From positions 62,001-126,000 of the forward strand of contig JAJDDQ010000030.1 of assembly GCA_029260215.1 (NCBI GenBank): a stretch of DNA of 64,000 nucleotides, read 5' to 3'. The stretch comes from Phycisphaerae bacterium. Its GTDB lineage: Bacteria; Planctomycetota; Phycisphaerae; UBA1845. The notes beneath the pieces are model-generated. The model saw only the letters and a program-made list of their open reading frames with translations. It was not told the origin of the DNA and ran no database searches. This document shows, piece by piece, positions 2,473-24,510 of the stretch (within the stretch, counting starts at the first letter, position 1; each line of letters opens with the position of its first letter). Position numbers and translations under genes: made by a program.

Positions 2473-2511
2473 TCAATCCGCACCGGGAATTCGCCGATAT
2501 ACCGTAGCAGT

Positions 2512-2640: not shown

Positions 2641-2703
2641 CCAGCCGAACGTTCGCGCACCGGGGCGGACCGCTTTGGATTACCTGCTGTGCGGTGAATT
2701 CTC

Positions 2704-5584: not shown

Positions 5585-6570
5585 TGGGCTCCCCGGTCGT
5601 TTCGATCATCGTCCCCGCCTATCGGGCTGCGCGCTTCCTGCCGCGCATGATCGCCTCCGTTCGCGCGCAGACGTTTACCGACTGGGAGTTGATCATCGTG
5701 GACAGCCGCTCGGACGACGGCTCTCGCGAAATCGTCGAGGGTGCGCGTCGTGAGCTGGACGGACGACTTGTCTTCATCGAGTGCGATCACCTCGGCCCCG
5801 GTCATGCCCGGAACGTCGGCATCGATGCCTCGCGCGGGGAATTCATCGCCCTTCTGGACGCCGACGACGAATTTCGCCCGACAAAGCTCGAACGGCAACT
5901 GGAGTTGTTCAAGCTGCGACCGCAATTGGGGCTTGTATACAGCGACTACGCCTTCGTGGACCTCGCCGGCCAACGACGGGAGAGCGTGTTCGACACGCTT
6001 CAACCCATAGCCCGCCAAGTTCCATTCGACGAAATCGCCCCGCGACTCTGCGTCTGCACGGGCGACATGTTCGAGCACCTGGTCCGCGGCTACTTCATCG
6101 CCACGATCGTCGGCATGGTGCGTCGATCGGTGCTCGGGACCGCGATTCGTTTCCTGCCGCAGTTGCGTTACGTCGAAGAGTGGGTGTTCTATCTGGACAT
6201 CGCACGCAACTGCGAAGCCGGCTTCGTAAACGAACCTCTGTCGATGCATCATTTTGTGGCCGGAAGTCTCTCTCGCTCGTCAAGCGAAGCCAACGATCGC
6301 GGCCTGATCGAAGCGCTAGCACTAATGCGCCGCCGATACCGCGGCGCGTCGAGATCGGCCCGCGCAGCCTTGCGACGAAATCACGCCAACGCGATTCAAC
6401 AAGTAGCCATGCACGAGTACAATCAAGGTGCATACGCCCGCGCCGCCCGCCACTTCGCTCAAGGGTTCCTCGCCAAACCAAACCTCAGAACCGCAATACA
6501 CCTCTGCCAATCCACCGCACGCTCACTCAACCCCAAAAAAACGACTCCCGACCCCTTAAACATCTCTTAA
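5581..6570 (+). CDS. Family 2 glycosyltransferase
   Basis: The start is placed at the GTG overlapping the previous stop (GTGA); an ATG follows immediately at 5584. The protein of about 329 residues opens with VSIIVPAYRAARFLP, has LIIVDSRSDDGS as the nucleotide-binding turn and LLDADDEF as the DxD metal site near residue 85. The C-terminal 60 residues are basic and helical (HEYNQGAYARAARHF), as in family members that end in a TPR-like tail. It is the last gene of the 5' polysaccharide operon; downstream DNA is non-coding. Confidence 0.85.
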   Translation: MMGSPVVSIIVPAYRAARFLPRMIASVRAQTFTDWELIIVDSRSDDGSREIVEGARRELDGRLVFIECDHLGPGHARNVGIDASRGEFIALLDADDEFRPTKLERQLELFKLRPQLGLVYSDYAFVDLAGQRRESVFDTLQPIARQVPFDEIAPRLCVCTGDMFEHLVRGYFIATIVGMVRRSVLGTAIRFLPQLRYVEEWVFYLDIARNCEAGFVNEPLSMHHFVAGSLSRSSSEANDRGLIEALALMRRRYRGASRSARAALRRNHANAIQQVAMHEYNQGAYARAARHFAQGFLAKPNLRTAIHLCQSTARSLNPKKTTPDPLNIS

Positions 6571-7200: not shown

Positions 7201-8109
7201 GTGGAGATCAATCGTGTCGACCTTCAAGGGGCCGACCTCGCAACCGCGAATTTCCAATCGGCGCGCGTGTTTATGGCATTGCTCGGGGGGGCGAAACTCG
7301 ACCGCGCCAATCTCGGCCTCGCCTATTTTCGAGAATCCAATTTTTGGCGGACGCGAATCACCGAAGTAAGCTTCAAGCATGCGACATTCCTGGATAACTT
7401 TTTTGTTGACGTCGACCTGAGCCGCACGATGGGTCTTAGCACCGTAAGACACGCTGGACCATCTTTCATCGATGTGCTGTCACTCGAGAATTCAGGTGGA
7501 GGAATTCCAGAGGAATTCCTTCGTGGTTGCGGTTTCAAGCCTTGGCAAATTCTTGATGCGAAGCTCTACAATCCGAATCTCACACGAGCCGAGATCATCG
7601 ACATTCAATACGAAATTTTGGACGCTCGATCGACTGGATCCCTTCTTCTTGGTGGCGTCTTCATCTCCTATTCGCATGCTGATGCCGGGTTCGCCGACAA
7701 AATACGTGAAAAGCTCACGGAAAAGGGCGTGCCTGTGTGGCTCGATCGACACGATGCCGTGGCTGGACCGCTTCAGAAACAAATCGATCACGCCATCGGT
7801 GCACACAACGCCGTCCTGCTCGTGTTGTCCGAAGACTCGATCGCCAGCGACTGGGTCGAACACGAGTTGAAAACCGCTCGCCGCATTGAACGCAAGGAGG
7901 GCCGCGACGTGCTGTGCCCAGTCAGGCTCGACGACGCATGGAAGGACAAGCGTCACGACGTGAATTGGGGGCACATCACAGACAAGAACATCTTGGATTT
8001 CTCGAAGTGGAGGACCAAAGCCTTCAGTGGGCAGTTCGAAAAGCTGCTCAAGGGCTTGAAAATCTACTACACGCACGATGAGGATGAGAATCGCGAAGCT
8101 GCAAAGTGA
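7201..8109 (+). CDS. Pentapeptide-repeat protein with C-terminal TIR domain
   Basis: The annotated start is GTG 7201, although family-like sequence continues upstream (see 6940-7200). The first 70 residues are A(D/N)LxxA-type pentapeptide repeats (DLQGADLATANFQSA), which form a right-handed beta-helix. After a linker comes a TIR domain at about residues 150-295: GVFISYSHADAGFADKIREK, VPVWLDRHD, and SEDSIASDWVEHEL, whose Glu sits where the NADase glutamate is found. Such TIR proteins may cleave NAD+ in defence or act as scaffolds, and the beta-helix may sense a partner. No effector or partner gene adjoins it, and inverted repeats flank it. Confidence 0.8.
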   Translation: MEINRVDLQGADLATANFQSARVFMALLGGAKLDRANLGLAYFRESNFWRTRITEVSFKHATFLDNFFVDVDLSRTMGLSTVRHAGPSFIDVLSLENSGGGIPEEFLRGCGFKPWQILDAKLYNPNLTRAEIIDIQYEILDARSTGSLLLGGVFISYSHADAGFADKIREKLTEKGVPVWLDRHDAVAGPLQKQIDHAIGAHNAVLLVLSEDSIASDWVEHELKTARRIERKEGRDVLCPVRLDDAWKDKRHDVNWGHITDKNILDFSKWRTKAFSGQFEKLLKGLKIYYTHDEDENREAAK

Positions 8110-10372: not shown

Positions 10373-11020
10373 TCAGTGAATGGGTGAGCAATGGCTGCAA
10401 GGCGCGAAGCCGACATCAAACGCATCGTCCGGCTTGGAGAACGGCACATCGTCACCCGGCTTGATATTCACGACATCGTTGCAGGTTGGACGGTGGAAAG
10501 AGGCGTGCCTTCGGTCGCCGATGTATTGATCCTCCGTTTTTCTGAAACGGTTTCGCCAAATGCCACGACGCTCGCTTCGCGCCTCACGCTGAGCCTCCAA
10601 CAATTCCTGCTCGAATCGTTGCTCGCCCCGCTTAAGGCGTACATAAGCAAGTCCTTGCCTGACGATTTCTTCGTTGACGAATTGGCCGTCCACGAACACG
10701 AACGCGACCCAGCGGTCTTCCTTGTCTGTTTGATGGTCGCCGAAGCGCATGCGGATTCTCTTTCCCTCGACCATTTCCCGGACAGCGTTTACAGCGTCGT
10801 CTCCCGATGGATCATTCGGGAACGGGGCGCGAATTCCCGCAAACAACACGTACTCGTCCTTATCTGTCTTCAGTTTGTTTGCGTTTACCACGCGCTTGAT
10901 TTTTTCGCTGCGCGTCTGAGACACAACTACATCGCCATCACCCGATGGCCCTGCGAAACGATAAATCATGAACGCAGAGAATGCGACAAGAAAAGCGATA
11001 AGCGCGGTACGCGCGTTCAC
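10373..11020 (-). CDS. Membrane-anchored staphylococcal-nuclease-fold protein with Cys-rich tail
   Basis: A 215-residue protein with one N-terminal hydrophobic helix (ALIAFLVAFSAFMIYRF). The SNase OB-fold follows at about residues 35-160, including DRWVAFVFVDGQFVNEEIVR. Compared with the classical enzyme, the Arg corresponding to R87 is kept (DRW), but the RLLLVDTPE segment reads YVLFAGIRAPFPN, so the equivalents of R35 and E43 look lost. The tail FHRPTCNDV ... FAPCSHCSP is a putative metal-binding Ada-like knot often attached to exported nucleases. It starts in an ATGA overlap with the kinase upstream, so it is co-translated with the glycan cluster. Confidence 0.7.
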   Translation of the reverse strand: MNARTALIAFLVAFSAFMIYRFAGPSGDGDVVVSQTRSEKIKRVVNANKLKTDKDEYVLFAGIRAPFPNDPSGDDAVNAVREMVEGKRIRMRFGDHQTDKEDRWVAFVFVDGQFVNEEIVRQGLAYVRLKRGEQRFEQELLEAQREARSERRGIWRNRFRKTEDQYIGDRRHASFHRPTCNDVVNIKPGDDVPFSKPDDAFDVGFAPCSHCSPIH

Positions 11021-12429
11021 TCTGCCGCCTCCTTGAATGAACGAACAATGAAGACTCCGCTACCACCCCGTTCGTCACCGGATTCGTGCCGCCACAATGC
11101 GTCTCGCCCAAAGCGCAGCACCGGTTCGATCCACCGCCAAAGTGCGCCTGCATATATCCTCGTGTTGGTCCGGAACAGATGTAGCGCTCCGATTCGAAAG
11201 AGTGTGGCCGCCCAATAATACCGCAGCGCACGATCGTCGATAGTGTCCACTACGGAAGTGTAAGCGGACAGCATCACATTGGCTTGGGCTGCAAACCTCT
11301 CCGAAGAGCAATCATGCTGAAGACTGTAGAGACACTGATGAGCCAGGAGGTTTCCAATATCCAACTCTCGCCGCCCGACGGCCGCCGTATCCAGATCAAG
11401 TATCGTCGCATGCTCAGGAAATATGACCACCTGCGACTCGTAAAAGTCACCGTGCACCAGCACGGGGGCATTCAATGCAATGAGCGCCCGAGCGGCTTCA
11501 AGCAAAGACAGAGACGACTCGGCTTGGCTATGCAGCTCGGGGTATGCGTGTCGAACGATCTCCGCCCATCTCGTGATTGTTGACCAATAGCGGTCATCGC
11601 GAACGGGCCGGAATCCGTCAGGGGATATCTGGTGGAAGATGGCCAGGGACTCGCCCGCTCGCCCGGCGAATTCCACGTGCTCCGGTTCCAACGGCCGCGC
11701 TGAGTGCCCGATTTCCCATTCAGTGACGACAGCATTCAGCTCAGCGTCATGTCCGACGACACGCGGAACCCGCAGTTCGTCGCCGCTTCGGCTCTTCAGG
11801 CGACTCGCAATAAGCTCGTGCCGGAGAAGCTTTTGTGCGCTGCGCGTATCGGCGAAACACTTCAAAGCCCATGATCGACCCAAACCCTCGGGCGAATACT
11901 CGTCAAGACGCACCACGAAGCGACGACCGCGTCTGAATGAAACAACACTGCTACGCAACTGGTCCGTATTGATGGTTTTCCACGACTCGCGAGACCTCAA
12001 GGCCAACGCATTCACCCGATTCGCGATGTATGATGCTTCGAGGCAGTCACGAAACCGCGGCAAACTCTCGTCGCAGTCTGCCGAATGAATAGTCAAGTCC
12101 ATTCCTTCGATATCGACAAACACACCGGTAAGCTGACCGGCCACGCTGCGCCCCCGCCTTGAGACCCTCAAACAGGTTGAATCCAGCCTCGGGCTTCGAG
12201 CAAAAACTGTCACCTCGTAATCAGACTGGCCCTCCACCTCACATCGAACGACGTACTCGATGTCAACACTGCCGTCTCCCCTCGGAGTGAATCGATGCAA
12301 GGCAACGTCCACCGGGTGACCGCCGTCAGGCCAACGCACGCTCTCTGCCAGAACACTGGTCATAGCTGACGAATCGAGCCACTTCGTCAAATGCGGCGAT
12401 GCTTCAAAAGGTGATTGCTTGATGCTCAT
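11017..12429 (-). CDS. Phosphotransferase (APH-fold) family protein, second of a pair
   Basis: The start is the ATG overlapping the previous gene's stop (ATGA), giving 470 residues. The N-terminal 170 residues have no clear family. Residues 180-470 are an aminoglycoside-phosphotransferase-like kinase: catalytic loop LVHGDFYESQV, metal-binding TILDLDTAAVG, and a choline-kinase-like helical end. It follows a paralogue of the same architecture and an ABC exporter, so the likely substrate is a sugar or polyol of the exported glycoconjugate, not a drug. The substrate is not deducible from sequence. Confidence 0.72.
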   Translation of the reverse strand: MSIKQSPFEASPHLTKWLDSSAMTSVLAESVRWPDGGHPVDVALHRFTPRGDGSVDIEYVVRCEVEGQSDYEVTVFARSPRLDSTCLRVSRRGRSVAGQLTGVFVDIEGMDLTIHSADCDESLPRFRDCLEASYIANRVNALALRSRESWKTINTDQLRSSVVSFRRGRRFVVRLDEYSPEGLGRSWALKCFADTRSAQKLLRHELIASRLKSRSGDELRVPRVVGHDAELNAVVTEWEIGHSARPLEPEHVEFAGRAGESLAIFHQISPDGFRPVRDDRYWSTITRWAEIVRHAYPELHSQAESSLSLLEAARALIALNAPVLVHGDFYESQVVIFPEHATILDLDTAAVGRRELDIGNLLAHQCLYSLQHDCSSERFAAQANVMLSAYTSVVDTIDDRALRYYWAATLFRIGALHLFRTNTRIYAGALWRWIEPVLRFGRDALWRHESGDERGGSGVFIVRSFKEAAE

Positions 12430-13790
12430 GCTGGAATCTGAAGGTCGTCCCTCTGCTGCACAACGCCAACGGCCAATTCCACATAGGTCTGGACGAGTCT
12501 CTTCCAATCGGGGCGAAGATGCCGCAACACGCCGCGCGCGAGTGTAAGCAACGCCACAGCCGAATACCAGCGAAAACGCGGCAGGTCGATGGCTTGGCAT
12601 GTCTGCTGCTCCCAGGTTTCTAGGAATTCCCTGGCCCAAGCTTTGCATTCTGCCTGCGTCACCCCCAACTCTACACGATGGTGCAAAATCGACATTTGCG
12701 TCGCGAATGTCGCAATGTCAGCATACGCATCCCCTTGGGCGCATCGCTCAAAATCCAGAAGTGTCAAACGGTCTGCACGGCCGCGAACCTGGTTCCAATG
12801 GAAATCGTAATGCACCGTCCGGAAGTCCGCCGGATCGAGATTCGGGATCGATTCCCGAAGACGAACGACAACCTCATCCGACTCCGCATTCAATGTCGGA
12901 ATTACCGCTGCAATGTCCTCTGCAGCACGAATCGAAAGCTGAAGATCGTCCTCCGGGAAACGTTTCTCAAGCCCCTTGATCTGAACGCCATGAAGTGATC
13001 GCAATCCTAACGCAACGCGGTCCATGAGCTCTTCCGCATTACCCGATCTCAAATGATCGAGCATTGTATCACCCCACACCCAACGAACAGCAAGCAATCC
13101 CAATTGCGCGTCAAACGCGACCGGCTTGGGGACTCGGAATAGCGAGCCGAAGTTCTTTCTGGCTCGCCGCAGGGCGACCATCCGCGAATAGATCGTCTGG
13201 CATGCTTTCACGTTGGCGGAACGTACGGCAATGGTTCGCTTTTCGTCGCGCTCTGCCACTGAATCATGGCAAGTCGCGCTCAGACGAACGATCCATTTTT
13301 GCTCGGGCACGTACCGGAGAAGTGATCGCCTTAGCGTCTCCGGTTTTAACTCAAGGGCCGGCTCATCGTTGGAAAGCCAAGTCTGCCAAACACTCGCCGC
13401 ACTATCTCGACCGGAAAACTTTCGCAGGCCCCGCAGTCGACGATCATTCGGGAACCGATACGCTTCGACCTCGCAACCATTCAACTGAATACCGTCTCCA
13501 CGTCGCGATTGTGATTCACGAGCAGGCAGCCGAACATAGCATATCTCACCTTCCGGCCACTCGCGATGCGGGCTAATGCTTTCCGTTTCCGACAATGCAT
13601 ACGCTACCCGCACCTGGTCCCCAGGATCATACAAAGCTTCAATAGCGCGGCAATATCGCAACTCATCTCGACCTGCAAATAGCGTGCGCCTGAGCATCGC
13701 TGCTATATTCACCGGTGCGAGCAGCTCGCCAATGCGGCCCAACGCCGGGTCAACAAGCCAGTCGTTTGGATTTTGAAGCATCAATGTCAT
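12426..13790 (-). CDS. Phosphotransferase (APH-fold) family protein, first of a pair
   Basis: About 454 residues from ATG 13790 (a second ATG lies at 13781); either start overlaps the exporter gene by 30-40 bp. As in its neighbour, about 190 residues of unknown fold precede a kinase domain with RTVHYDFHWNQV (catalytic Asp) and LTLLDFERCAQGD (DFE metal site). The motif is closer to HxDxxxxN kinases of the APH/choline kinase superfamily than to protein kinases. It ends in ATGA with the second kinase. Two tandem kinases after an exporter suggest sequential phosphorylation of one pathway intermediate, which is inference. Confidence 0.72.
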   Translation of the reverse strand: MTLMLQNPNDWLVDPALGRIGELLAPVNIAAMLRRTLFAGRDELRYCRAIEALYDPGDQVRVAYALSETESISPHREWPEGEICYVRLPARESQSRRGDGIQLNGCEVEAYRFPNDRRLRGLRKFSGRDSAASVWQTWLSNDEPALELKPETLRRSLLRYVPEQKWIVRLSATCHDSVAERDEKRTIAVRSANVKACQTIYSRMVALRRARKNFGSLFRVPKPVAFDAQLGLLAVRWVWGDTMLDHLRSGNAEELMDRVALGLRSLHGVQIKGLEKRFPEDDLQLSIRAAEDIAAVIPTLNAESDEVVVRLRESIPNLDPADFRTVHYDFHWNQVRGRADRLTLLDFERCAQGDAYADIATFATQMSILHHRVELGVTQAECKAWAREFLETWEQQTCQAIDLPRFRWYSAVALLTLARGVLRHLRPDWKRLVQTYVELAVGVVQQRDDLQIPA

Positions 13791-15639
13791 AAGCCTCTGT
13801 CGCCACTCCTCGCTGGCGTTTCCTCCATGCGCAGTCAAGTGCCTGATAGGATGGACAAGCCCGAAGCAATTCGCGATGGCTGCCATTGGCAACCACTCGT
13901 CCATCCTCGATCACTATTATCCGGTCAAATCGCTCCATCGTCGCAAAGTCATGGCAAATCACAATTCGCGTCCGCTCAATATCGTCGAATATGAGGTGCG
14001 TCTCCGTGGAATGCTCCAAGCCAGCATCCAAGCCCGTACCAGGCTCATCCAGAATCAGAATCGGCGTTCGGCGCAGAAACGCACGGGCCAATGCGAGTCG
14101 TTGACGCTCTCCGCCCGACAACTTCGTTCCACGCTCGCTCAAGATCGTGCGATATCCGTTCGGGAGCTGACGAATGAAGTCATCCGCACCGGCCAACTTC
14201 GCCGCCTTCCGAACCGCGGCAGTGTCGATCTCATCACAACCCAACGCGATGTTCTCAGCCACCGAGAAACCAAAAAGTACCGTTCCCTGTTGAACGACGG
14301 CGAATTGATTCCGCAGCGACGCGATCTTGATCTGCCGTATGTCCAAGTCGTCGATCAGAATCGCGCCACAATCGACGTCGTAAAACCGCGACAGAAGCTT
14401 GATAAGCGTGCTCTTACCTGCACCACTCCGGCCGACAATCGCCACACGTTCATTCGGTTCGACGACAAACGAAACGTTCTTAAGCGCCTCGTTGCCGTCC
14501 GGATATGCAAATCCAACGTTGTCAAACACTACCCGACCGCGGATACCCGTCGCCTCGACGCTGTCTGCCGCATCCCGAACCCTTGGCTGGATTGATAGGA
14601 TTTCCGCAATGCGAAGACCGCATGCCGTTGCCTTGGCAGACTGACCTGCCAGCCGGGCCATTTTGCGAATCGGCTTGTTCAGGGCGCGAACATACGCAAC
14701 GAAAACCAATAGATCCCCGGCAGTCATTGTTCCCGCCAGAACGGCTTGCACGCCGAAATAGAGAACAGCACAAAGCCCAACGGCTGACGCAAGAAACACG
14801 GTGCGAAAGAGCTTGGCCTCCAGCCGAGTTGTGCGCACTCCGGCGCGAATCGAGCCTCGATTCTGACGAGAAAAGCGCTGAAGTTCGATCTTTTCCCGAT
14901 TAAATGCCTGAACCAACATCATCGCGCCCAAGACTTCGTGCGCAACGGACGCAACGCCGCTTTCCTTTTCACGCTGACTCTTCGTCGCTTTGCGAATACG
15001 CTTGGAAATACGGGCCGCAGAGAGGACCACCAATGGAATCGTACCCACCGCAAACATGGCCAAGTATGCATTCAACCAGAACATCACCGCTACGGTGACG
15101 ACAATAGTCAACACGTTTTCGCCAAAAGTGACCCACGCGTTAACCAGCATCTGCCGGAGCATCTGCATGTCACCGGTCAGACGAAGCAGCAAATCACCGG
15201 TACGCTTGGTCTCGAACACGTCCGGGGAGAGCATCTGCATATGACGAAACATATCGTGGCGAAGACGCCCAACCACTTGTTGTCCGGTCTGTGCAAGAAG
15301 AACATCACGCACATAACTGAATACGGACTGGCCGACGGCAATCAACAGTATGCATGCGCAGATAACGACCATCGCCGCCGTAGGACTTGCCGCGACCGCC
15401 TCGAACCATCGGCCAATGGTCGAATCCGACATCGAATCGGAAAGCACAAGATCGAAGACAAATTTGATAGGCCACGGACTGGCGACGTTCATCAGAACCG
15501 TGCCCACCGTCGCGAGCATCGCGATGGCCATTTGCTTCCAATGGGGCTTCAGGTATCGAGCGAAACGACGCCTTACAATGTCCATCTCGCCCAGATTGAG
15601 CTTGCCGCGATTAGTCCTGAATGCGCGAGGCCACTTCAT
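13750..15639 (-). CDS. ABC exporter, fused transmembrane and ATPase domains
   Basis: About 629 residues from the ATG overlapping the previous stop (ATGA). The transmembrane half (about 20-330) starts after RRRFARYLKPHWKQMAIAML and has six hydrophobic helices. The ATPase half has Walker A GRSGAGKSTLIKLLS, Q-loop FAVVQQGTVLFG, signature LSGGERQRLALARAFL, Walker B ILILDEP and H-loop VICHDFA. This is the MsbA/type IV exporter architecture for lipids, lipid-linked oligosaccharides or peptides. Set among three glycosyltransferases and two kinases, it probably flips a glycolipid or glycan precursor. Confidence 0.9.
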   Translation of the reverse strand: MKWPRAFRTNRGKLNLGEMDIVRRRFARYLKPHWKQMAIAMLATVGTVLMNVASPWPIKFVFDLVLSDSMSDSTIGRWFEAVAASPTAAMVVICACILLIAVGQSVFSYVRDVLLAQTGQQVVGRLRHDMFRHMQMLSPDVFETKRTGDLLLRLTGDMQMLRQMLVNAWVTFGENVLTIVVTVAVMFWLNAYLAMFAVGTIPLVVLSAARISKRIRKATKSQREKESGVASVAHEVLGAMMLVQAFNREKIELQRFSRQNRGSIRAGVRTTRLEAKLFRTVFLASAVGLCAVLYFGVQAVLAGTMTAGDLLVFVAYVRALNKPIRKMARLAGQSAKATACGLRIAEILSIQPRVRDAADSVEATGIRGRVVFDNVGFAYPDGNEALKNVSFVVEPNERVAIVGRSGAGKSTLIKLLSRFYDVDCGAILIDDLDIRQIKIASLRNQFAVVQQGTVLFGFSVAENIALGCDEIDTAAVRKAAKLAGADDFIRQLPNGYRTILSERGTKLSGGERQRLALARAFLRRTPILILDEPGTGLDAGLEHSTETHLIFDDIERTRIVICHDFATMERFDRIIVIEDGRVVANGSHRELLRACPSYQALDCAWRKRQRGVATEAYDIDASKSKRLAC

Positions 15640-16967
15640 GAAATGCGCCCTCCCGCACGACTGACCGCCCCAGACCACACCGCCGACTTCGAAGGACTTG
15701 CACCTTCCCTTGCCGCTTCTGTGGGATTGTGCAGATCAAGATACCAGTTCCTCATGCGATCAACGTTTCGTTCAATATCAAACAAAGACTCCATCCGAGC
15801 CCGGCCATTCTCGCGGATCGAATCCGTCAGATTGGAATCCATGCACATCCGCTTGATCGCGTCGGCAAGCGCTAATTCGTCGCGCGGTTCGACCAGGAGC
15901 CCGCTCGCACCATCTTCGAGGATTTCCGGAATGCCCGACAATCGCGTGCTGATACATGGGCAACCGCACGCCATAGCCTCCAACAGCACAGTCGGGAGCG
16001 CATCGACATTGCCGTCCTTCGCACGAATACAGGGCAGAACAAACGCATGGCTGCGCTGCAACAACCCGCGCACTTCTGCTTGTGGAAGAGACCCCGCGAG
16101 CGTAACACAATCTTCAGCATCGTGCCGTTTGATACCGTCAGCCAACGCGGCTCGCTCCGGACCGTCACCGACAATCGTGCATTGCACGGACAGGCCCGCA
16201 GACTTGAGCCGCGCGACCGCACGAACCAGGTGAATGAACCCCTTCTTCTCAATAAGACGCCCCACTCCGATCAACGTCAACGGCCTGCGGTCTGTATCGA
16301 CATAATCGAACGCATGAAGGTCGATTCCGTTGTAGTTCACGCGAATCTTCTCGGGATCAACACCGGGAAGGTTGTCCACCATGAAACGGCGATTGTATTC
16401 GCTGACCGTAACGATGAAACGCGAGGCGTTGATCTTTCTCGCGAGCAAAGCACGATCGACATTGTCGCGAAAAATGTCGAATGCGTGCAACGTCAGACTG
16501 TACGATAATCCTGCCATTTGATGGGCGAGATACGCAACCGACGCTTCCTGCGTGCCGAAGTGAACATGGATGTGTTTGAGCTTCTGCTTGCGCACCCACC
16601 GCAAGACCAGTGCAGCCTGCATAAAATCGGTTCGGTCAATACTGGCCTCACTGCGGTACCGCCGCAATGCGCGCAGATAATCGGCTGGGCGATCCTTGAA
16701 TTGATTCCAATGGGTTCGACGGGACTTGGCCCGGTCCTCGACCCAAAACTCCGGAAGGTACTCGGCCCGGGCGCGCACATGGCTGATTGATGCATGAAAT
16801 CGACCGTCCGTCGGCTTGCGCAACGAGAGGATCCGGACATCAACACCTTGCCGCTCGAGTTCGAGAATCTCGTTCACGACGAACGTCTGCGTGAAGCGGG
16901 GGTACATGCGCAATACGTATCCCACGCGCGGTTTGGAACTGGATTTGCCTCGACGATCTTTTTTCAT
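15636..16967 (-). CDS. Family 4 glycosyltransferase (WcaL/AmsK-like)
   Basis: A 443-residue protein starting MKKDRRGKSSSKPRVGYVLR and continuing MYPRFTQTFVVNEILELER, the opening typical of colanic-acid-type WcaL glycosyltransferases. The donor half has LIGVGRLIEKKGF, RSHAFVLPCIRAKDGNVDALP and VLLEAMACGCPCIS, covering the E-x7-E region. It overlaps the upstream glycosyltransferase and the downstream exporter by 4 bp each. It acts in the cytoplasm on a membrane-bound acceptor. Confidence 0.87.
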   Translation of the reverse strand: MKKDRRGKSSSKPRVGYVLRMYPRFTQTFVVNEILELERQGVDVRILSLRKPTDGRFHASISHVRARAEYLPEFWVEDRAKSRRTHWNQFKDRPADYLRALRRYRSEASIDRTDFMQAALVLRWVRKQKLKHIHVHFGTQEASVAYLAHQMAGLSYSLTLHAFDIFRDNVDRALLARKINASRFIVTVSEYNRRFMVDNLPGVDPEKIRVNYNGIDLHAFDYVDTDRRPLTLIGVGRLIEKKGFIHLVRAVARLKSAGLSVQCTIVGDGPERAALADGIKRHDAEDCVTLAGSLPQAEVRGLLQRSHAFVLPCIRAKDGNVDALPTVLLEAMACGCPCISTRLSGIPEILEDGASGLLVEPRDELALADAIKRMCMDSNLTDSIRENGRARMESLFDIERNVDRMRNWYLDLHNPTEAAREGASPSKSAVWSGAVSRAGGRIS

Positions 16968-18241
16968 GAAACGGCGACGCCCTCATTCTCAATCCGAACG
17001 CCGCGGCGATTCAAGGCACTGTCCACCGCTCTTAGCGTCGCTTCCGCCGCAGCTCGCCAGGTATAGCGCGCCTCAACACATGCGCGAGCGGATTGCCCCA
17101 ATTCGCACCGCCGATCCGAATTCTGATAAGCCTCCAGCAAACAGTCCAGCAAACTGCTCTCATTGCCCGCCTCAAAGAGCAGCCCGTGGCGACCGCCATC
17201 CAGCACTGTCTCAATTTGGCCACACCGAGCAGCCACGACACATCGACCGGCGGCCATATATTCGAATAGCTTGATGGGAGAAAAATAAAAGTTTTCCATA
17301 TTGCGATACGGCGCAACAGCCACATCCATCGCATCGAGATAATTCGGCACTTCACGATGCTCGACGGCACCGGCAAAGCGAACCGCATCACTTATGTTCA
17401 ATTCTGTCGCCTGACGCTTGAGCGCTTCCTCCATCGGACCGGTACCGACGATCAGCAATGACGAATCGCGATTCGCCTCGCGAAGACGAGCAAAGGTCGA
17501 CATCAGCATGTCCACACCATGCCATGCTTTGAGACTGCCCAAAAACCCGACCACGAAACGCTCGCCCAACGCAAGATCGCGCCGAACCGAGTCGCCATCC
17601 ATGTCACCAAATGCAGACAAGTCCACGCCGTTCGGCACGACCGAAATCTTTGATGCGGATACGCCCTCTGCCACCAATTGATCGCCCAATGCGCTCGATA
17701 CCGTGATGATTTCGTCTGCCCGACTAAATACGCGCCGCTCTATCTCCTCCGCCAACTCCTTCAACGCAAGACCACGAAATTGAGCGGCTTCACGACTCAG
17801 GAGCGCGTTGACCTCCACGACCAGAGGGCAGTCCAACCGTTCGGAAAGATCAAGTCCGACATGGCTGAGCAAAGTCAGACGCTCGATAATCGCGTCCGGG
17901 CGAAAGGACAACACCGAATCCGTTGCGTGGCTGCTCGCCCACTCATTGAATAGAAGGGCGCGCAATTCGCCAGCCACAGTGGTCGCCAGAGAACGGTCCT
18001 TCAGCCAACCGCGCATTTTCCGGGCGATCTTCAGTGATGGACAGGACGCCCCATGAAGAACATCTTCCACCAAGCCATCAGCGGTGTTGAAACCGTGAGG
18101 CGTGAGCGCCTTGACCGTATGGCCGCACTCGACCAGTGCGCGCGTGATGGCGCGCACGTGAATGGAAGCACCCTTCGTTCCTTCAGGGCGAATGCCCATG
18201 TCGCTACACAGATACAGAAGCTTCAACGCGAAGACCTCCAT
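16964..18241 (-). CDS. Family 4 glycosyltransferase
   Basis: About 425 residues if started at ATG 18241 (MEVFALKLLYLCSDMG); a TTG at 18226 giving a clean LKLLYLCSDMGI start is an alternative. Both overlap the upstream gene, by 38 or 23 bp. The GT-B features are GASIHVRAITRALVECGH near the start, ISVVPNGVDLSAFG in the middle and PIKLFEYMAAGRCVVAARC as the E-x7-E region. It is coupled by ATGA to the next glycosyltransferase. The role is glycan assembly; the sugar is unknown. Confidence 0.85.
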   Translation of the reverse strand: MEVFALKLLYLCSDMGIRPEGTKGASIHVRAITRALVECGHTVKALTPHGFNTADGLVEDVLHGASCPSLKIARKMRGWLKDRSLATTVAGELRALLFNEWASSHATDSVLSFRPDAIIERLTLLSHVGLDLSERLDCPLVVEVNALLSREAAQFRGLALKELAEEIERRVFSRADEIITVSSALGDQLVAEGVSASKISVVPNGVDLSAFGDMDGDSVRRDLALGERFVVGFLGSLKAWHGVDMLMSTFARLREANRDSSLLIVGTGPMEEALKRQATELNISDAVRFAGAVEHREVPNYLDAMDVAVAPYRNMENFYFSPIKLFEYMAAGRCVVAARCGQIETVLDGGRHGLLFEAGNESSLLDCLLEAYQNSDRRCELGQSARACVEARYTWRAAAEATLRAVDSALNRRGVRIENEGVAVS

Positions 18242-19409
18242 TCCAATGAGCGGCACATCGATCGCGTATGAAATCCATGCCCCCGAGGTCCAGCGCGGAC
18301 GTGTCCGGACACCACGAATCATCCAAACTCGACACAACGCGAGACGTAAGCCCCTCGGACGTGAGCGTGGTGGGGTCGACGGCATCGACAATCCCAAGTT
18401 CCTTCCACAAATTCGCCCGCATAGCCTGCTCGTACCGCGGCTTGACACGTGGAACGATGAGCGTCGGCACGGACCAGGACGCCACTTCGCACATTGTGTT
18501 GTACCCGCCCATAGACACGACAAAATCCGCCTCACGCAGCAGACAGCTCATGCATTGGGCATGCGACAAGACTGTTGTTCCGGGCAGGTCGGATATCTTC
18601 TGCTGAACGTACGACACGATCCACGGCGACGCGTCCGGACCGGCCACGATCGTCGATCGTCCCCCTGACTTCGCTACGGCATGCACAGCATCGTCGACGT
18701 AGCGACGGATCAAGTCTTCACCGTCCGTACCACCTCCAACCGTCACGACAACGTGACGATCGCCGGGCCTTTTCTGCAGTTCGTGCGTGCATGGTGTTCG
18801 AGAAAGGTAACCGGTGTAGTGCAGTTGCTCGCGGGTCGCCCCGGATATCCCGTATTCTTCCGCGACATCGAACACCGAGCTGCTACCGTATACCCAAGTC
18901 TCGTCGTAGTAATCTTCCAGGGTTTGCTCATAACTCCCATCCTCCCATTGGCGACGCGTGACTTCCTGCGTGTCCTCAATATCGCGCATTCCGTACACAA
19001 CCAAGGTGTCCGGGCAATTGCGCTGGACCCATTTGAGAACCGGTATCATCTCCCGATGAAGCCCTGCCGGCGTTTTGTCCACGAGAAGAATGGTAGGCTT
19101 GAAATAGTTGACCGTGGCCAGAAGAAGTGCCCTTCTGCAGTTAAGAAGCTGCTGCATGCGCACCGAGAGCGACTTGCTCGAATACCGGCCATTGGAACTT
19201 TTCTTGATGGCTGGAAGCTTGACGTAATCAAGCCCAGGGGGAAGCCCCACTACGGGAAGATAGGGCGTTCCAGTGACGATCAGAAACGAAGACCTGTCGA
19301 AAGATTGCGACAGGTGCTCGCAAATCGCCGTGCTGCGGCGCAAGTGGCCAATCCCCATACCGTCGTGGCAATAGACCATCACGCGTCGTGACAGCGTCGG
19401 GTTTGGCAT
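18204..19409 (-). CDS. GT28/MurG-like glycosyltransferase, first gene of the minus-strand glycan operon
   Basis: The start is ATG 19409, giving MPNPTLSRRVMVYCHDGMGI and then GHLRRS, a typical N-terminal loop of UDP-glycosyltransferases that resemble MurG. The C-terminal donor-binding domain has VVTVGGGTDGEDLI and FVVSMGGYNTMCEVASWSVP. Length is about 401 residues. It probably leads the operon that runs to 10373, because the upstream gap of 457 bp separates it from a divergent gene. Confidence 0.8.
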   Translation of the reverse strand: MPNPTLSRRVMVYCHDGMGIGHLRRSTAICEHLSQSFDRSSFLIVTGTPYLPVVGLPPGLDYVKLPAIKKSSNGRYSSKSLSVRMQQLLNCRRALLLATVNYFKPTILLVDKTPAGLHREMIPVLKWVQRNCPDTLVVYGMRDIEDTQEVTRRQWEDGSYEQTLEDYYDETWVYGSSSVFDVAEEYGISGATREQLHYTGYLSRTPCTHELQKRPGDRHVVVTVGGGTDGEDLIRRYVDDAVHAVAKSGGRSTIVAGPDASPWIVSYVQQKISDLPGTTVLSHAQCMSCLLREADFVVSMGGYNTMCEVASWSVPTLIVPRVKPRYEQAMRANLWKELGIVDAVDPTTLTSEGLTSRVVSSLDDSWCPDTSALDLGGMDFIRDRCAAHWNGGLRVEASVSV

Positions 19410-19866
19410 GGCTTTCGCAATCAATCTTGAATCCTTTCCCGCAATCGGCGGCTGATCTCGTGCTTTTCGGATAACGATCCGACGCCTTTGTTCAATTCCA
19501 CCGCTGGACAACATGTCAAACGCGAGTTTGTTCGCACATCGCGGCAATACTCACATCACGACGACGCATACCCGAGCCGACCACCGCCTTACGAACGCCT
19601 TCAACGGAACGATGAAAGCGTTGAAGCCCTCATGCAAGAATTGTGCCACCAATCGGCACGCGACTTGCTGACAGTTAGGATGACGGAAGTTGTTGGTGGA
19701 CCTTGATCCATGATGGTCATCCTAGCTATGCCCGATGAGCGACCACAAACATTGTTAAGAATTGCTAATAATCCACGCCGATCGGCGTTCGCTGAATTAG
19801 AACGTACGTGTCCGATCGTCGGCCCGCGATATGGCGTGCCGATACCGTGAGATCTGAGGCTGGAAC
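19410..19866. other. Divergent intergenic region between the glycan operon and the alkaline-phosphatase-like gene
   Basis: No convincing gene was seen in this 457-bp stretch. A 72-codon plus-strand frame at 19488-19706 has no recognisable features. The right half is locally AT-richer (TTGTTAAGAATTGCTAATAA near 19754) and contains a perfect 14-bp palindrome at 19775-19788. Both flanking genes start outward from here, so their promoters should lie within it. Confidence 0.5.
19775..19788. promoter_or_regulatory. Perfect palindrome ACGCCGATCGGCGT, possible operator
   Basis: A 14-bp perfect inverted repeat without spacer lies 79 bp upstream of the GTG at 19867, next to the AT-rich stretch. Its position suits a dimeric regulator controlling one or both divergent units. 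No second copy was noticed in the window. Confidence 0.3.
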
Positions 19867-21222
19867 GTGATTGAAGGAATCATCCTGGTTGTGATTGATT
19901 GCCTGCGGGCGGACCACGTGTCCGCCTACGGATACCACCGCGCGACGACTCCTACCATAGATGTGTTGGCGGCGGAGGGGGTGCTTTGGGAGCAGGCCTT
20001 CAGCACCAGCTCATGGACCAAACCGTCCGTAGCATCAATGCTCACCGGACTTTATCCGAGCGCGCACGGTGCCTTCGAAGGAGTCAAAAGGCAGCGAGGC
20101 CGAGATGCCGCAATGACCGACCGGCTCAAGGTCGGAGCGCCGACGATTGCCAACCAGCTTACGCAGGCGGGCTGGAGGTGTGGGGCGTTCATAAACAATG
20201 CGCAATTGGGAGAATTTGCGGGGCTTGACGGCGGCTTTGAGCATTATGACGCTTGTGCCGGACGTGCGGACCGCATCCTGAGCGAACTAAAAGCCTGGCT
20301 CACGCGCGACACCGGGTCTCGCAACTTTGCCTATCTTCACTTTCTCGAAGCGCATTGGCCCTACAAGCCGCGAAGGCGTCATGTGGCTGAGTTCGGCGGG
20401 AACCGCGATACCAATTGCTTTTCCGGGTTTTCCGCTCGCGATTACGGAAAACTCCGTCGCGAGATCAAGCAGGGAACACGAACGATCGCGGACGACGAAA
20501 TTACCCAGATGATCCAGATGTACGATGGGTCGGTTCGGCGGCTGGACGGCAAAATCAAGAAACTTCGCGGCATGCTCAAGGAGCTTGGGTTATCGGACCG
20601 TTACGCGATCGTCGTCACCGCGGACCACGGCGATGAATTCCTGGAGCACGGGACGATAGGCCACGGGCACACGCTTTACGACGAAATTACCCATGTCCCC
20701 CTGATTGCCCATGTGCCGGGGGGGAGCCGAGGCGTCAGGCGATCGCGACCGGTGAGTCTTGTTGACCTTGGCGGCTTGTTGCTTTCGATGGCCCAGGTCG
20801 AAAACACCGATTCGACCTGTGATTTGCTCAACGATGAAGACCACGCTCGTCCCGTTTTTTGCGAGTTGCGAACGGGGCGTCGCTACAAGCAATCGCTTCG
20901 GACGGAATTCTGGAAGATTCACCGCAAATGCCTTTTTGACGTCGATGCCCCCGACGCGCCGGCCCACGCCACGCCGCGACAGCTTTTCAAGTCGCACGCG
21001 CGCGAGGTGTCTTACGAGTTCTACGACATGCTGCGCGATCCGAGGGAGACGACCGACCTGGCTGGTCGCGAGTCAACAGCGGCGGTCTTCAAAAGCCATG
21101 TCCATCAGTTGGACCGATTTTGGCGTCAGCTTCACTGCCCTTGTGAGGAATCGGCATCGAGTGAGGTGTCCATCGACGTGGAACTGATCGGACGCCTCGA
21201 ACGTTTGGGATACCTCGATTAG
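19867..21222 (+). CDS. Alkaline-phosphatase-superfamily (sulfatase-like) hydrolase with Thr at the nucleophile position
   Basis: A 451-residue protein with the sulfatase fold: metal site IILVVIDCLRADHVSAYGY, second metal site VVTADHGDEFLEHGTIGHGH, and a C-terminal YEFYDMLRDPRETTDLAGR. The modification motif C/S-x-P-S-R is replaced by T-K-P-S-V (residues 51-55 in SSWTKPSVASMLTGLYP), so formylglycine cannot form. The chemistry is more likely phosphodiester or phosphoethanolamine transfer or hydrolysis, with Thr as nucleophile. The absence of a signal peptide points to a cytoplasmic enzyme. It is divergent from the glycan operon and may process its product. Confidence 0.8.
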   Translation: MIEGIILVVIDCLRADHVSAYGYHRATTPTIDVLAAEGVLWEQAFSTSSWTKPSVASMLTGLYPSAHGAFEGVKRQRGRDAAMTDRLKVGAPTIANQLTQAGWRCGAFINNAQLGEFAGLDGGFEHYDACAGRADRILSELKAWLTRDTGSRNFAYLHFLEAHWPYKPRRRHVAEFGGNRDTNCFSGFSARDYGKLRREIKQGTRTIADDEITQMIQMYDGSVRRLDGKIKKLRGMLKELGLSDRYAIVVTADHGDEFLEHGTIGHGHTLYDEITHVPLIAHVPGGSRGVRRSRPVSLVDLGGLLLSMAQVENTDSTCDLLNDEDHARPVFCELRTGRRYKQSLRTEFWKIHRKCLFDVDAPDAPAHATPRQLFKSHAREVSYEFYDMLRDPRETTDLAGRESTAAVFKSHVHQLDRFWRQLHCPCEESASSEVSIDVELIGRLERLGYLD

Positions 21223-21232
21223 GAGAGAAACC

Positions 21233-21967
21233 TTGTCACGGAAAAGGATTCTATTCAGCGTGTCCGATTATTCCGGACGTCGCCCCCATCACAAACGCAA
21301 GAAGACATCAGCTTTTACGCTGATCGAATTGCTTGTCGTTGTGGCGATCATGGCCACACTCATGAGCATCCTGCTCCCTTCGCTCAAAAGGGCCAAAGCT
21401 GCAGCGCGCGAGACGATTTGCAAGACAAACCTGAGGTCCATTTACTTGGCACAATCTTTGTGGCTGGACGTCGCGTCTCTATTCCAACCGCTCAACAACG
21501 AAGAAGACGACGGAAAGTGGCAATACAACTACCTCATCAATGACGGGAACGATTGGAAGAGCAATTTCGGGCCTCTCATAACGGACAAAGGGCTTCTGCA
21601 CGACGTGAAACTCCTCTATTGCCCGTTTCAAAAAGACCCGTTCCATATTCAGGACAGCTCGGACAACCCGTTTCCTCCGAACGAAGGGTTCGACACGCGC
21701 GCGTCGTACGCTAGACGTCATCTGTTGAGTGGACGGCCGTTGACCGACTTTCGAAGAAATATCGCTATCTTCAGCGATGTCATCCACCTGCCCAAAGTGA
21801 TCCGCTCTGCACACAAGAAAGGCGTTAATTCCGTCTTCCTGGACGGACATGCGGTGTGGGTCTCGGACCCGGGATTCTTTACCAACAACGAACTCGGCGA
21901 GCCCTTTGACGAATTGGATAACCCGATTATTGACCAAATATGGCGAGCCATAGACGCTCGTTCATAA
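21233..21967 (+). CDS. Prepilin-type (type II secretion/pseudopilin-like) protein
   Basis: A 244-residue protein starting at a TTG ten bases after GGAGAG. After a basic leader comes the class III cleavage motif FTLIELLVVVAIMATLMSIL (Phe-Thr-x5-Glu pattern), giving a pilin N-terminal helix. The end has the planctomycete H-x9-D/G-like segment VNSVFLDGHAVWVSDP. Such proteins are abundant in this phylum and are probably exported by a type II/IV system. It lies 10 bp after the hydrolase gene. Confidence 0.85.
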   Translation: MSRKRILFSVSDYSGRRPHHKRKKTSAFTLIELLVVVAIMATLMSILLPSLKRAKAAARETICKTNLRSIYLAQSLWLDVASLFQPLNNEEDDGKWQYNYLINDGNDWKSNFGPLITDKGLLHDVKLLYCPFQKDPFHIQDSSDNPFPPNEGFDTRASYARRHLLSGRPLTDFRRNIAIFSDVIHLPKVIRSAHKKGVNSVFLDGHAVWVSDPGFFTNNELGEPFDELDNPIIDQIWRAIDARS

Positions 21968-21993
21968 CTCTCATTACCCATTGGCTGGTTTGC

Positions 21994-24510
21994 ATGAATA
22001 CATTGCACTCAATACATCTTATGCGTTCGCTTCTGCTGGTCGGATGCGTTGCAGTCGTGGCGGCTGGACAGATTCCCGATCATCCGATAATCACTGAGGT
22101 CTACTTCGATCCCCCCGGCCTGAACGACGGCCCGGTGGGTCGAGACCCATCCAACGCGCACCAGGAATTCATCGAAATCTACGTGCCCAATGCGACGGCG
22201 CTGAACCCGGCACTGAACAAGGACGCTTTGCGATTGACGTTCTACGAGGTCGAAGGGGACAGCAGCAGTTCGGGTACAGGGCTAGTCAATTACCGATTCG
22301 ATCTCCCGCTCATCGACGCGAACCCCACCAACGGACTGACACAAGGGGCCATCGCTCGTCCAACAAGCGGCGTTCTGGTGCTCGGCTGGGTGGACTACAT
22401 CAATGATCCGCCCACTGCGCTCGCGGGTACGACAAACACGCGGATCGCGTTGATTGACAACGGTATCACCGCCCCGACGGGTGACTCTACATTCGTGGCG
22501 ATCAATGGGCAGCACTTTGGCGGAACATTGAACTTCCCCAACTTGGCCGCCGAAAACCTGATCGATCTGCCAAGCGAGTCGCGGACCGGCGTAATTCAAA
22601 ATGGTTCGAGCGCGTACCTGCTCGTCAACCGCGACGCGTCCGGATACGTCGAACTGTGCGATGACCAACACGCAGCCTTGTGCGTCGCCGGTGCCAACCC
22701 GTTCCTCGCAATCGACGGCGCCGGCCTGTTGTCGACCGCCCTCCTGGACGGCTTCGCGGGCAATGACGATTCGCTCTTCGTCGTCACCGCTCAACCTTAC
22801 GACACCCCCACCGGTGACGACATCGATCTGGAGACTGTACTACCCTTCGAAGGCGCATTCAGCCGCCTAATTCCGCAGTTAAACGAATCCGATGACAATA
22901 GGCCTGCACCGGGGGACGCAAACGGGTACGCGCGTCATTACGTCGACGTGCCCAAGACCACTGAGACCGGCACCGCATTCAATGACGACCCCATCGAAGA
23001 CGCCCTAAACGCGTATCGGCACGTTCGCAACAACGGGCCTTTCTTTGCAAGCCCAGGACGAGCCAATCTTACCACCTCGCCGCCAAGACTAAGTGTGGCG
23101 GTGGCGACAGAGCAGGTGTTTGAAGTGCTCAAGCAAACCACCGGCCATCCCGGTCTGCTTTGCGCGAACGTTGGTGGTGCGAGTGCAATTGATATCGCGG
23201 CGACCTCTACGGAATTCGTAGGGCAGTCTTCGGTGACAGTTGGTCCGGGACCGGGCGCGATGAACGTTTCCGGGACGGAATTCGGATTCCCGACCATTGC
23301 GGCGAGTCCAATGCCCGGCTCGCAACACGGCGACACCACAACCGTGACCATCGACCTGTCGGCGACGAATTCAATCGCCACCGACCCGCCGGTGGCGGAC
23401 GCGAATCAGACCGCGACGGCCTCGGTTGCCGTCCTTGATCCCGTTGACGGACTTGATGCACAGCTCAACCCGTTTCAAACGACCGTATTCGTCGCAGTGG
23501 AGCCAGTGCCGTTCAACCCGGTTGTATTCAATGAATTTGCATCCACCAATCTGGGGCAGTTCGTATCCGTCAACCTTGGAACGCGCGTCCACGACTCGCT
23601 CGGAAACGCCCTCACACTGGTCAACCCGGCGACCGATATTTCGAACGGCTTCCTCCTCTACGTCACACTGAATCTTGTGGAATTGCTGCCGGAGCAACTG
23701 AGCGACTACATCAACATCCTCGGCCCCTTCGGCACGCTCGATCTCGTGCAAACAGTGTTGTTGTCCGCGGAATGGCAGAGTGGCGAGCCGACCTATTTCG
23801 GGAGCATTGACGGGCTTCAATCAGCGGTCAAAGCCACGTCGTTCTCGATCCCCGAGACTAAGACTTTCGGCGGTTCTTTTTCCACGGACGCCACCATTCA
23901 TTTCTCCGACGCACGCGGTTTCGTCGGCGATCCGCGTTCCGGACTGACCAACGTGCTGACCGACCGCACGTTTGAGCTTGCGATCGTTGAGACCAATGTT
24001 CGGCCTGACAGTTCGATCGAGAGCGGCGCGACGGACGACTTCGGTGTGCTCGTGCAAGTCGAAGACCTCGAGCCGACATCGACACTGATACCGGGTGAAT
24101 TCGTTTTCCTGAGCTATACCGGCGGGCGTCAGGGCGCAGATATCGACACGCTTGAGATTCTGCCGGGGCCTAATGTCGCGTCCATCATCTACTTCGATCT
24201 TGACAATTTGCACGAGCGTATGGGCATCAAGTCCATCTCAGCGGTCATTATCATCGATGGAAGTGGCAACGGCACGATCGACACACTTGAAGTATTCAAC
24301 CTGAATCCGGTCAATTGCATCAGTACCAATGGCGACAGCGATTGTGATTCAGACGTCGATCTCATTGACTTTGCATTCCTGTCCGCATGCACCCTGGGGC
24401 CGAATCAAGCCGTTCCCCCGCAGTGCGGGACTTTCGACGCAGACGCCGACGGTGATGTCGATTTGCTCGACTTCGGCGCGTTCATGCGACTGTTCACAGG
24501 GTCCAACTAA
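21994..24510 (+). CDS. Secreted lamin-tail-like protein with C-terminal dockerin-like repeats
   Basis: About 838 residues from ATG 21994; another ATG at 22021 gives the cleaner signal peptide MRSLLLVGCVAVVAAGQ. Residues 30-140 (IITEVYFDPPGLNDG, EFIEIYVPNAT) resemble a lamin tail domain as found on bacterial exported proteins. The middle contains beta-rich, G/T/D-rich repeats. The final 60 residues contain two Ca-binding dockerin-like loops, NGDSDCDSDVDLIDFAFL and DADADGDVDLLDFGAFM, the usual C-terminus of planctomycete exported proteins. Substrate or partner is unknown. Confidence 0.72.
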   Translation: MNTLHSIHLMRSLLLVGCVAVVAAGQIPDHPIITEVYFDPPGLNDGPVGRDPSNAHQEFIEIYVPNATALNPALNKDALRLTFYEVEGDSSSSGTGLVNYRFDLPLIDANPTNGLTQGAIARPTSGVLVLGWVDYINDPPTALAGTTNTRIALIDNGITAPTGDSTFVAINGQHFGGTLNFPNLAAENLIDLPSESRTGVIQNGSSAYLLVNRDASGYVELCDDQHAALCVAGANPFLAIDGAGLLSTALLDGFAGNDDSLFVVTAQPYDTPTGDDIDLETVLPFEGAFSRLIPQLNESDDNRPAPGDANGYARHYVDVPKTTETGTAFNDDPIEDALNAYRHVRNNGPFFASPGRANLTTSPPRLSVAVATEQVFEVLKQTTGHPGLLCANVGGASAIDIAATSTEFVGQSSVTVGPGPGAMNVSGTEFGFPTIAASPMPGSQHGDTTTVTIDLSATNSIATDPPVADANQTATASVAVLDPVDGLDAQLNPFQTTVFVAVEPVPFNPVVFNEFASTNLGQFVSVNLGTRVHDSLGNALTLVNPATDISNGFLLYVTLNLVELLPEQLSDYINILGPFGTLDLVQTVLLSAEWQSGEPTYFGSIDGLQSAVKATSFSIPETKTFGGSFSTDATIHFSDARGFVGDPRSGLTNVLTDRTFELAIVETNVRPDSSIESGATDDFGVLVQVEDLEPTSTLIPGEFVFLSYTGGRQGADIDTLEILPGPNVASIIYFDLDNLHERMGIKSISAVIIIDGSGNGTIDTLEVFNLNPVNCISTNGDSDCDSDVDLIDFAFLSACTLGPNQAVPPQCGTFDADADGDVDLLDFGAFMRLFTGSN

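Follow-up and report, generated by a model that had tools for sequence, protein, structure and literature searches.

Gene content and organization of the locus

The stretch of DNA analysed here, called the window in the following, comprises 64,000 nucleotides of a Phycisphaerae bacterium (Planctomycetota, UBA1845; assembly GCA_029260215.1, contig JAJDDQ010000030.1, positions 62,001 to 126,000). On its minus strand, at 10373-19409, lies an operon of seven genes, which code for three glycosyltransferases (GTs), an ABC exporter, two consecutive kinases of the aminoglycoside phosphotransferase (APH) fold, and a protein of the staphylococcal nuclease (SNase) fold. An initial annotation had deduced these genes from the letters and their reading frames; all seven are indeed present, their frames are open, and they match the named families in profile searches (Table 1). 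The order of transcription is GT3 (of the GT28_C type), GT2, GT1 (both GT4), ABC, KA, KB, SNc.

At four of the six junctions the genes overlap by 4 bp, which read ATGA at GT2/GT1, GT1/ABC and KA/KB, and GTGA at KB/SNc. The overlap amounts to about 23 bp at GT3/GT2, where GT2 begins with a TTG (18226) behind GGAGG, and to about 41 bp at ABC/KA, where KA begins with an ATG (13790); SNc begins with a GTG behind AAGGAGG. The starts of GT2 and KA were our choice; the profile matches of GT2 were computed from position 18223, and the PF01636 match of KA with a longer start at 13811. The description of the junctions as mostly 4-bp ATGA overlaps is thus correct with respect to length, but strictly only three of them read ATGA. 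That the products are made in fixed ratios, as had been proposed, cannot be inferred from overlaps.

Table 1. Features of the operon and of the adjoining region, with positions in the window.
Feature	Position	Strand	Evidence
GT3, GT28_C/MurG-like glycosyltransferase, first gene of the operon	18204..19409	-	PF04101, 1.1e-5
GT2, GT4-family glycosyltransferase	16964..18226	-	PF13692, 4.3e-30; TIGR04063, 180 bits (below cut-off 442)
GT1, GT4-family glycosyltransferase, EpsE-like	15636..16967	-	PF00534, 1.3e-34; NF041876 (EpsE), 224.7 bits (below cut-off 400)
ABC, MsbA/HepA-type half exporter (transmembrane domain, then nucleotide-binding domain)	13750..15639	-	PF00664, 1.3e-50; PF00005, 3.7e-32
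KA, first APH-fold kinase, Arg190 at the place of the ATP lysine	12426..13790	-	PF01636, 1.6e-8
KB, second APH-fold kinase, catalytic residues and ATP lysine K190	11017..12429	-	PF01636, 1.3e-14
SNc, membrane-anchored SNase-fold protein, C-terminal FHRPxC...CxxC tail	10373..11020	-	PF00565, 1.2e-14
Sulfatase-superfamily enzyme, Thr (WTKPSV) at the sulfatase Cys/Ser place	19867..21222	+	PF00884, 8e-40
Type II pseudopilin-like protein	21233..21967	+	PF07963, 8.2e-7
Large secreted protein, mature part opens with an ITEVYxDPPG stretch	22021..24510	+	hydrophobic N-terminus
Perfect sigma-54 -24/-12 element TGGCACAATTCTTGCA, facing the operon, about 220 bp before it	19633..19648	-	consensus scan
Divergent sigma-54-like site CGGCACGCGACTTGCT, one mismatch, facing the sulfatase-family gene	19654..19669	+	consensus scan

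The initial annotation placed the operon correctly, but cut the unit short: judged from relatives, it extends past the seven genes, and 19867-24510 belongs to it as well. The genes for the sulfatase-family enzyme, the pseudopilin and the large secreted protein adjoin there, transcribed on the plus strand in the direction away from GT3, and are arranged in the same way in locus L076. In relatives, the pseudopilin, the sulfatase-family enzyme and, in some cases, a third kinase are encoded inside the operon 3' of KB, and the gene of the large protein is the divergent neighbour before GT3. Within the 23 KA-bearing loci of the order (window included), the pseudopilin occurs 17 times, in 14 cases between the KB-type kinase and SNc; the sulfatase occurs in 11 loci, the large protein in 10 and a third kinase 3' of SNc in seven. 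These counts are lower bounds, several contigs ending early. For the large protein we chose the start at 22021 in a frame that opens at 21940; its weak dockerin-like end scores 20.5 bits with Dockerin_1, below the cut-off of 22.9. Directly 3' of it, at 24550-25773 (+), a right-handed beta-helix protein is encoded (PF13229, 2e-22); beta-helix proteins likewise flank the core in distant relatives.

Conservation of the kinase pair and its neighbours

In the order to which the window's genome belongs, a search of 114 genomes gave 26 with a match to KA and likewise 26 with a match to KB. KA proper is present in 23 of the former; G013, G048 and G065 were excluded because their matches are only weak, resemble KB or sit at the end of a contig. 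Among loci whose contig extends to the gene in question, the ABC gene lies directly before KA in 23/23 and a KB-type kinase directly after it in 22/22. GT1 is found in 22/22, GT2 in 20/20 and GT3 in 18/18 loci at the same place, and SNc in 18/18, some matches being partial at contig ends (GT3 in L093, GT1 in L091, ABC and SNc in L100). The operon is more than a chance arrangement, because 23 genomes share its gene order. On the evidence of these neighbourhoods, the association of the kinase pair with an MsbA-like exporter and glycosyltransferases, to which the initial annotation had pointed, is real and conserved. Co-occurrence of the pair with well-studied capsule or antibiotic genes, which by its own account would have contradicted the annotation, was not seen in the loci examined; in relatives, the core nonetheless has genes of the alginate-export, beta-helix and heparinase types as neighbours.

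Across the phylum, the KA profile matches in 41 of 392 genomes at 1e-10, the window's own genome included, and 20 loci from 18 of the other 40 genomes were fetched. Five of these distant loci (L137 and L141-L144) keep the order regulator (RR)-GT3-GT1-GT2-ABC-first kinase-second kinase, and the others keep parts of it. An AlgE-like protein of the Alginate_exp type is encoded next to the kinases in 11 of the 20 distant loci, 10 of which have a beta-helix match and three a sulfatase match. Furthermore, four plasmid records of Ca. Manganitrophus (Nitrospirota) match. The three that were read each carry kinase genes at two places, glycosyltransferases, a Hepar_II_III lyase, ABC exporter genes and an Alginate_exp protein (3/3), along with a radical SAM (SPASM) gene, a histidine phosphatase and sigma-54 regulators. 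By gene content, the Nitrospirota plasmids hold the core in a looser form, together with an alginate-export-type protein. Several cluster genes of L134 and L135 are annotated as adjoining pieces, perhaps owing to assembly error, and the exporter of L133 is split in two. The window's own genome has two Alginate_exp genes elsewhere, and no cluster gene was recognised by eye among the frames seen around them.

A glycolipid product with PfaD as partner was considered and dropped: PfaD is present in 31 of the 114 order genomes, nine of which are among the 26 genomes that match KA, compared to about 7.1 expected, so that there is no association. The idea had come from PfaD-type genes that adjoin the core in L137, L138, L141, L143 and L144. 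PfaA-type genes occur in two regions, and PfaA/PfaD-type lipid synthase genes lie at 4031-11431 of L160 and 11559-12902 of L161, again next to the core of distant Planctomycetota.

Residues and phylogeny of KA and KB

Both kinases match PF01636 above its cut-off of 23.2 bits (KB 55, KA 35.1). Kinases of the APH fold share a catalytic set consisting of an HxD motif and a metal-binding N/Q and D. The corresponding H, D, Q and D are present in 58 of 60 kinases, among them 16/16 KA and 18/18 KB sequences of the tree set; the exceptions are D1_L147 (D to A) and D1_L133 (Q to N). The ATP-lysine position of the N-lobe is occupied by an Arg in KA (20/20) and by a Lys in KB (19/19). Elsewhere, a Lys is found at this position in all nine third kinases and all eight distant second kinases, and the distant first kinases contain six Lys and three Arg. 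The loop preceding the position carries a lysine, K165, in 14 of 16 KA sequences and an Arg in the other two. The N-terminal domain of KA contains an invariant basic stretch (PNDRRLRGLR) and a helix of the ARGxxRHLRPxW type; these basic motifs suggest that the substrate is anionic.

In the tree of the 60 kinases, a branch with a support of 100/98 separates a KA side from a KB side. KA groups with the first kinases found in distant loci and with the two kinases from one Manganitrophus plasmid; the opposite side unites KB with the third kinases and the remaining second kinases. This split places the KA/KB duplication before the sampled Planctomycetota groups, and by this phylogeny KA and KB are old paralogues. 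The KA alignment comprised 20 of 23 KA sequences, with 16 KA in the tree (L072, L078, L080, L081, L083, L084 and L089 stayed outside), and the KB alignment 19 of 22 KB sequences, with 18 KB in the tree (L078, L081, L083 and L084 outside). The 17 distant kinases in the tree come from nine loci, other fetched ones not being used; the labels KB and KB2 were assigned by place or best match. The third kinase, a paralogue of the KB side, lies 3' of SNc in L071 (7065-8417), L079, L080, L082, L083, L086 and L091; in the tree, the L071 copy is separated from the eight remaining third kinases.

Structural similarity of the kinases

The AlphaFold2 models of KA and KB (pLDDT 88.2 and 87.4) both show APH-fold kinases. 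In Foldseek searches of the PDB, the best match was a maltokinase in each case: 4o7o_B for KA (E 2.4e-9, 500 columns, root mean square deviation (rmsd) 14.7) and 4u94 for KB (E 2e-11, 487 columns, rmsd 13.4). The lead is narrow, as PsiK follows at 5.7e-9 for KA and 4e-10 for KB, and glucosamine (GlcN) kinase and N-acetylhexosamine kinase are also listed. The maltokinase matches have TM-scores of 0.41-0.47 and an rmsd of 13-15 Å over the whole chain; the cap therefore sits at a different angle or fits only loosely. The kinase part is supported by VIA, which yielded 3ats for KA (Z 22.0, rmsd 4.2, 299 residues), and 2ppq (Z 20.7, rmsd 3.8, 281 residues) and the maltokinase 5jy7_K (Z 19.9, rmsd 3.5, 285 residues) for KB; the aligned rows lie largely within residues 113-454 for KA and 121-447 for KB, and rows within one Z unit count as tied. 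A sequence-based PDB search reached the kinase part only. The long N-terminal domain, which the initial annotation had noticed and left unassigned, is probably a maltokinase-like cap according to the predicted structures. The layout of cap plus kinase would then be that of the maltokinase/GlcN-kinase group, as described in PMC6520443.

It is conceivable, though rather unlikely, that the kinases supply sugar phosphates for the nucleotide-sugar precursors of the glycosyltransferases, and that the exported glycan itself is unphosphorylated. The Foldseek matches to sugar kinases fit this explanation, as does the statement in PMC6520443 that a GlcN kinase had earlier been annotated as a maltokinase or aminoglycoside phosphotransferase. 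However, the Pfam matches of the operon include neither a nucleotidyltransferase nor a sugar isomerase, and the GlcN-kinase signature Q-x2-RE-x2-YA-x3-LP-x-W (taken from PMC6520443 as well) is found in 0 of the 60 kinase sequences. An old, adjacent pair or triple beside an exporter would moreover exceed the needs of a salvage kinase.

Weak NCBIfam matches of the kinases to LxmK (2.1e-6 and 1.7e-4; again LxmK for distant kinases) and CotS (1.5e-4) lead to another alternative, namely a modified-peptide system, whose kinases would modify a peptide or protein for secretion by the ABC exporter. VIA lists LxmK chains too, at a Z of about 20 and level with many other chains, and a radical SAM/SPASM gene belongs to the Nitrospirota cluster. 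We consider such a system very improbable, since all LxmK and CotS matches lie far under their cut-offs, the Pfam matches comprise no lyase or cyclase (small precursor frames were not searched), the exporter has no peptidase domain, and three glycosyltransferases are part of the core. Phosphorylation of the glycan itself is the preferred role of the kinases.

Family placement of the exporter

The best NCBIfam match of ABC is MsbA_rel (407 bits, cut-off 780), and the HepA family is matched with 332 bits, likewise below the curated cut-off. With TIGR02203, the equivalog of the lipid A exporter MsbA, the score is 386.7 bits and does not exceed the cut-off of 602.

The latter value bears on the idea that the locus is a pathway of the lipopolysaccharide (LPS) core type, in which the kinases would stand in for WaaP/WaaY and the exporter would be a second MsbA for modified lipid A-core. 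Two kinases, glycosyltransferases and an MsbA relative do resemble a waa locus, WaaP phosphorylates HepI during core synthesis (PMC6358824), and LpxK is present in the window's genome. The genome contains, however, separate matches to the Kdo/WaaP family (PF06293), five of them with E < 1e-11, which together with LpxK speak against an LPS-core role of the operon. Moreover, KA occurs in this gene order in only 23 of the 114 order genomes, many of which are incomplete. Together with the exporter score, these findings make an LPS-core pathway improbable, and export of another envelope glycan is preferred.

The sulfatase-family enzyme and SNc

Formylglycine sulfatases (PF00884) have the nucleophile motif C/S-x-P-x-R, and the window's protein reads T-K-P-S-V instead. 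The Thr at the Cys/Ser place was read from an alignment with PDB relatives; the pattern WT(K/R)P is shared by 12/12 order sequences and L151, and was not found in L150 and L152. Since a Thr occurs at this place in some phosphoester enzymes of the superfamily, the protein is possibly a phosphoester enzyme.

SNc has the SNase fold, as had been noted, but three of the four nuclease residues are absent. Nucleases of the staphylococcal type rely on Arg35, Asp40, Glu43 and Arg87. The places of the first three are kept in 0/15 sequences, that of Asp40 being an Arg in 15/15, and the place of Arg87 is kept in 13/15; the register was set by eye and a weak alignment. This pattern suggests that SNc is probably a binding module and not a nuclease.

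Predicted sigma-54 promoter elements

The gap of 457 bp between GT3 and the sulfatase-family gene (19410-19866) holds two predicted sigma-54 elements (Table 1). When this gap was shuffled base by base 20000 times, two of the shuffled sequences contained a perfect match. Among relatives, with the window excluded and up to two mismatches tolerated, a site precedes GT3 in 12/26 loci compared to 1.67 expected, and the large protein in 6/9 loci, four of them perfect, compared to 0.56 expected. The controls gave 3/40 for ABC (2.44 expected), 3/34 for GT1 (2.22) and 1/18 for RR (1.0), and a scan for sigma-70 promoters remained at chance level (4 found, 6.1 expected). The window's genome has a sigma-54 gene, and its contig C26 encodes a histidine kinase/response regulator pair whose RR is 52% identical to that near the cluster in L079. 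The predicted promoter element suggests that the operon is under sigma-54 control; sigma-54 has been linked to envelope and exopolysaccharide genes in a published survey (PMC3162934). A second perfect element of the window, at 54783-54798 (+), precedes frames at 54957-58093 that by eye resemble a set of multihaem cytochrome, Rieske protein and cytochrome b.

Proposed function of the cluster

From its gene content, the locus is probably a conserved variant of envelope-glycan export with an old, asymmetric kinase pair. Our preferred reading, to which we assign a probability of roughly 0.6, is that of a sigma-54-controlled cluster which builds and exports a phosphorylated envelope glycan, with phosphorylation in the cytosol before export. 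The three cytosolic glycosyltransferases would assemble a short glycan, presumably lipid-borne. The KA/KB pair would then phosphorylate this glycan, or a sugar within it, at the expense of ATP; regular catalysis would fall to KB, and KA, given the Arg at its ATP-lysine position, would work slowly or have a regulatory function. A dimer of the MsbA-like half-transporter would carry the product across the inner membrane. Its passage to the surface may involve the pseudopilin, the SNase-fold protein and the large secreted protein in the window, and an AlgE-like outer-membrane channel and a beta-helix protein in other lineages.

The initial annotation had left open whether phosphorylation precedes or follows export. 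In a simple hydropathy test, KA, the glycosyltransferases and the sulfatase-family enzyme lack hydrophobic segments, KB has one marginal segment (1.62, limit 1.6) and SNc a single N-terminal one. Because the kinases need ATP, and kinases and glycosyltransferases look cytosolic, any phosphorylation of the glycan would precede export. The tests for MsbA, GlcN kinase, nuclease and formylglycine sulfatase all failed, and the cluster was therefore not assigned to any of these. As genes of the Alginate_exp, beta-helix and heparinase types stand beside the core in relatives, an exopolysaccharide is favoured.

Several observations weigh against the proposed phosphoglycan export. The Pfam matches of the cluster's ten proteins contain no initiating phosphoglycosyltransferase, ligase or polymerase, and the NCBIfam matches of the operon proteins are all below cut-offs. 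L136, L139, L140 and L107 have a KA-family kinase match without an exporter alongside. The one Nitrospirota plasmid included in the tree contributed two kinases, and both group with KA; a true KA/KB pair is thus documented for Planctomycetota only. The search for an AlgE-like partner was negative for the window and for 25 order loci, several of which are short contigs. With respect to regulation, the ten perfect sigma-54 sites of the 4.97-Mb genome, the operon's included, are no excess over nine for the reversed pattern, and the null model was a single-base shuffle. Fourteen of the 26 loci have no site before GT3, and only 3/14 have one before the sulfatase gene (0.86 expected). At least two GT3 sites (L076 and L081) are near-palindromes, that of L076 recurring before its sulfatase gene. 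As a warning, sites precede KA in 9/22 cases (1.32 expected), yet lie inside the ABC coding region.

A more far-reaching version is speculative, and we regard it as unlikely: the asymmetric pair, KA with its arginine or a relocated lysine, would license a lipid-linked glycan for MsbA-type export under sigma-54 control, and an AlgE-like channel or the set of pseudopilin and dead nuclease would finish the transfer. This would be an unrecognised phosphoglycan secretion route of Planctomycetota and, in looser form, Nitrospirota.

In agreement with the initial annotation, no published description of a pathway of exactly this content was found in the literature, most subscription journals lying outside the search. 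To our knowledge, the genetics of planctomycetal surface glycans is little known. The six-gene core kept in distant members of the phylum, together with the early-split kinase pair, thus offers a handle for assigning a whole secretion route, and the sigma-54 element suggests how this route is switched on. With an intact catalytic loop but an Arg in place of the ATP lysine, KA could serve to examine activity or regulation in APH-fold kinases.

Other features of the window

Left of the operon, at 1-6570 (+), lies a second sugar cluster with a carbamoyltransferase (694-2472), a methyltransferase (3630-4424), glycosyltransferases of family 4 (4100-5584) and family 2 (5539-6570), and a further family 2-like frame recognised by eye (2704-3765). 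At 7201-8109 (+), the translation reads as a pentapeptide-repeat-like N-terminus joined to a TIR-like domain.

Comparison with known systems

Both kinases resemble mycobacterial maltokinase and actinobacterial GlcN kinase in their best Foldseek match over nearly the whole chain and in a probable cap plus kinase layout (PMC6520443). They differ in the loose whole-chain fit, with other APH-fold kinases close in E-value, and in being paired, exporter-adjacent and without the GlcN-kinase signature; KA in addition has Arg for Lys. ABC matches the HepA, MsbA and MsbA-related profiles of HepA/MsbA/ChvA-type glycan and glycolipid exporters, but it stays under all curated cut-offs and has other partner genes.

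Alginate-type secretion employs an AlgE channel, a lyase and a beta-helix epimerase. Alginate_exp, Hepar_II_III and beta-helix proteins stand beside the same core in relatives, but an ABC exporter replaces the synthase and kinases are present in the cluster. None of the three proteins belongs to the window's operon; the beta-helix gene at 24550 lies nearby without being part of it. The waa operon of LPS core synthesis is similar in that glycosyltransferases and two kinases act before an MsbA transporter, but the window's kinases belong to PF01636 and not to PF06293, the genome's PF06293 matches lying elsewhere. WaaP in LPS core synthesis (PMC6358824) is an analogue for the combination of ABC-dependent glycan export with a phosphorylation step.

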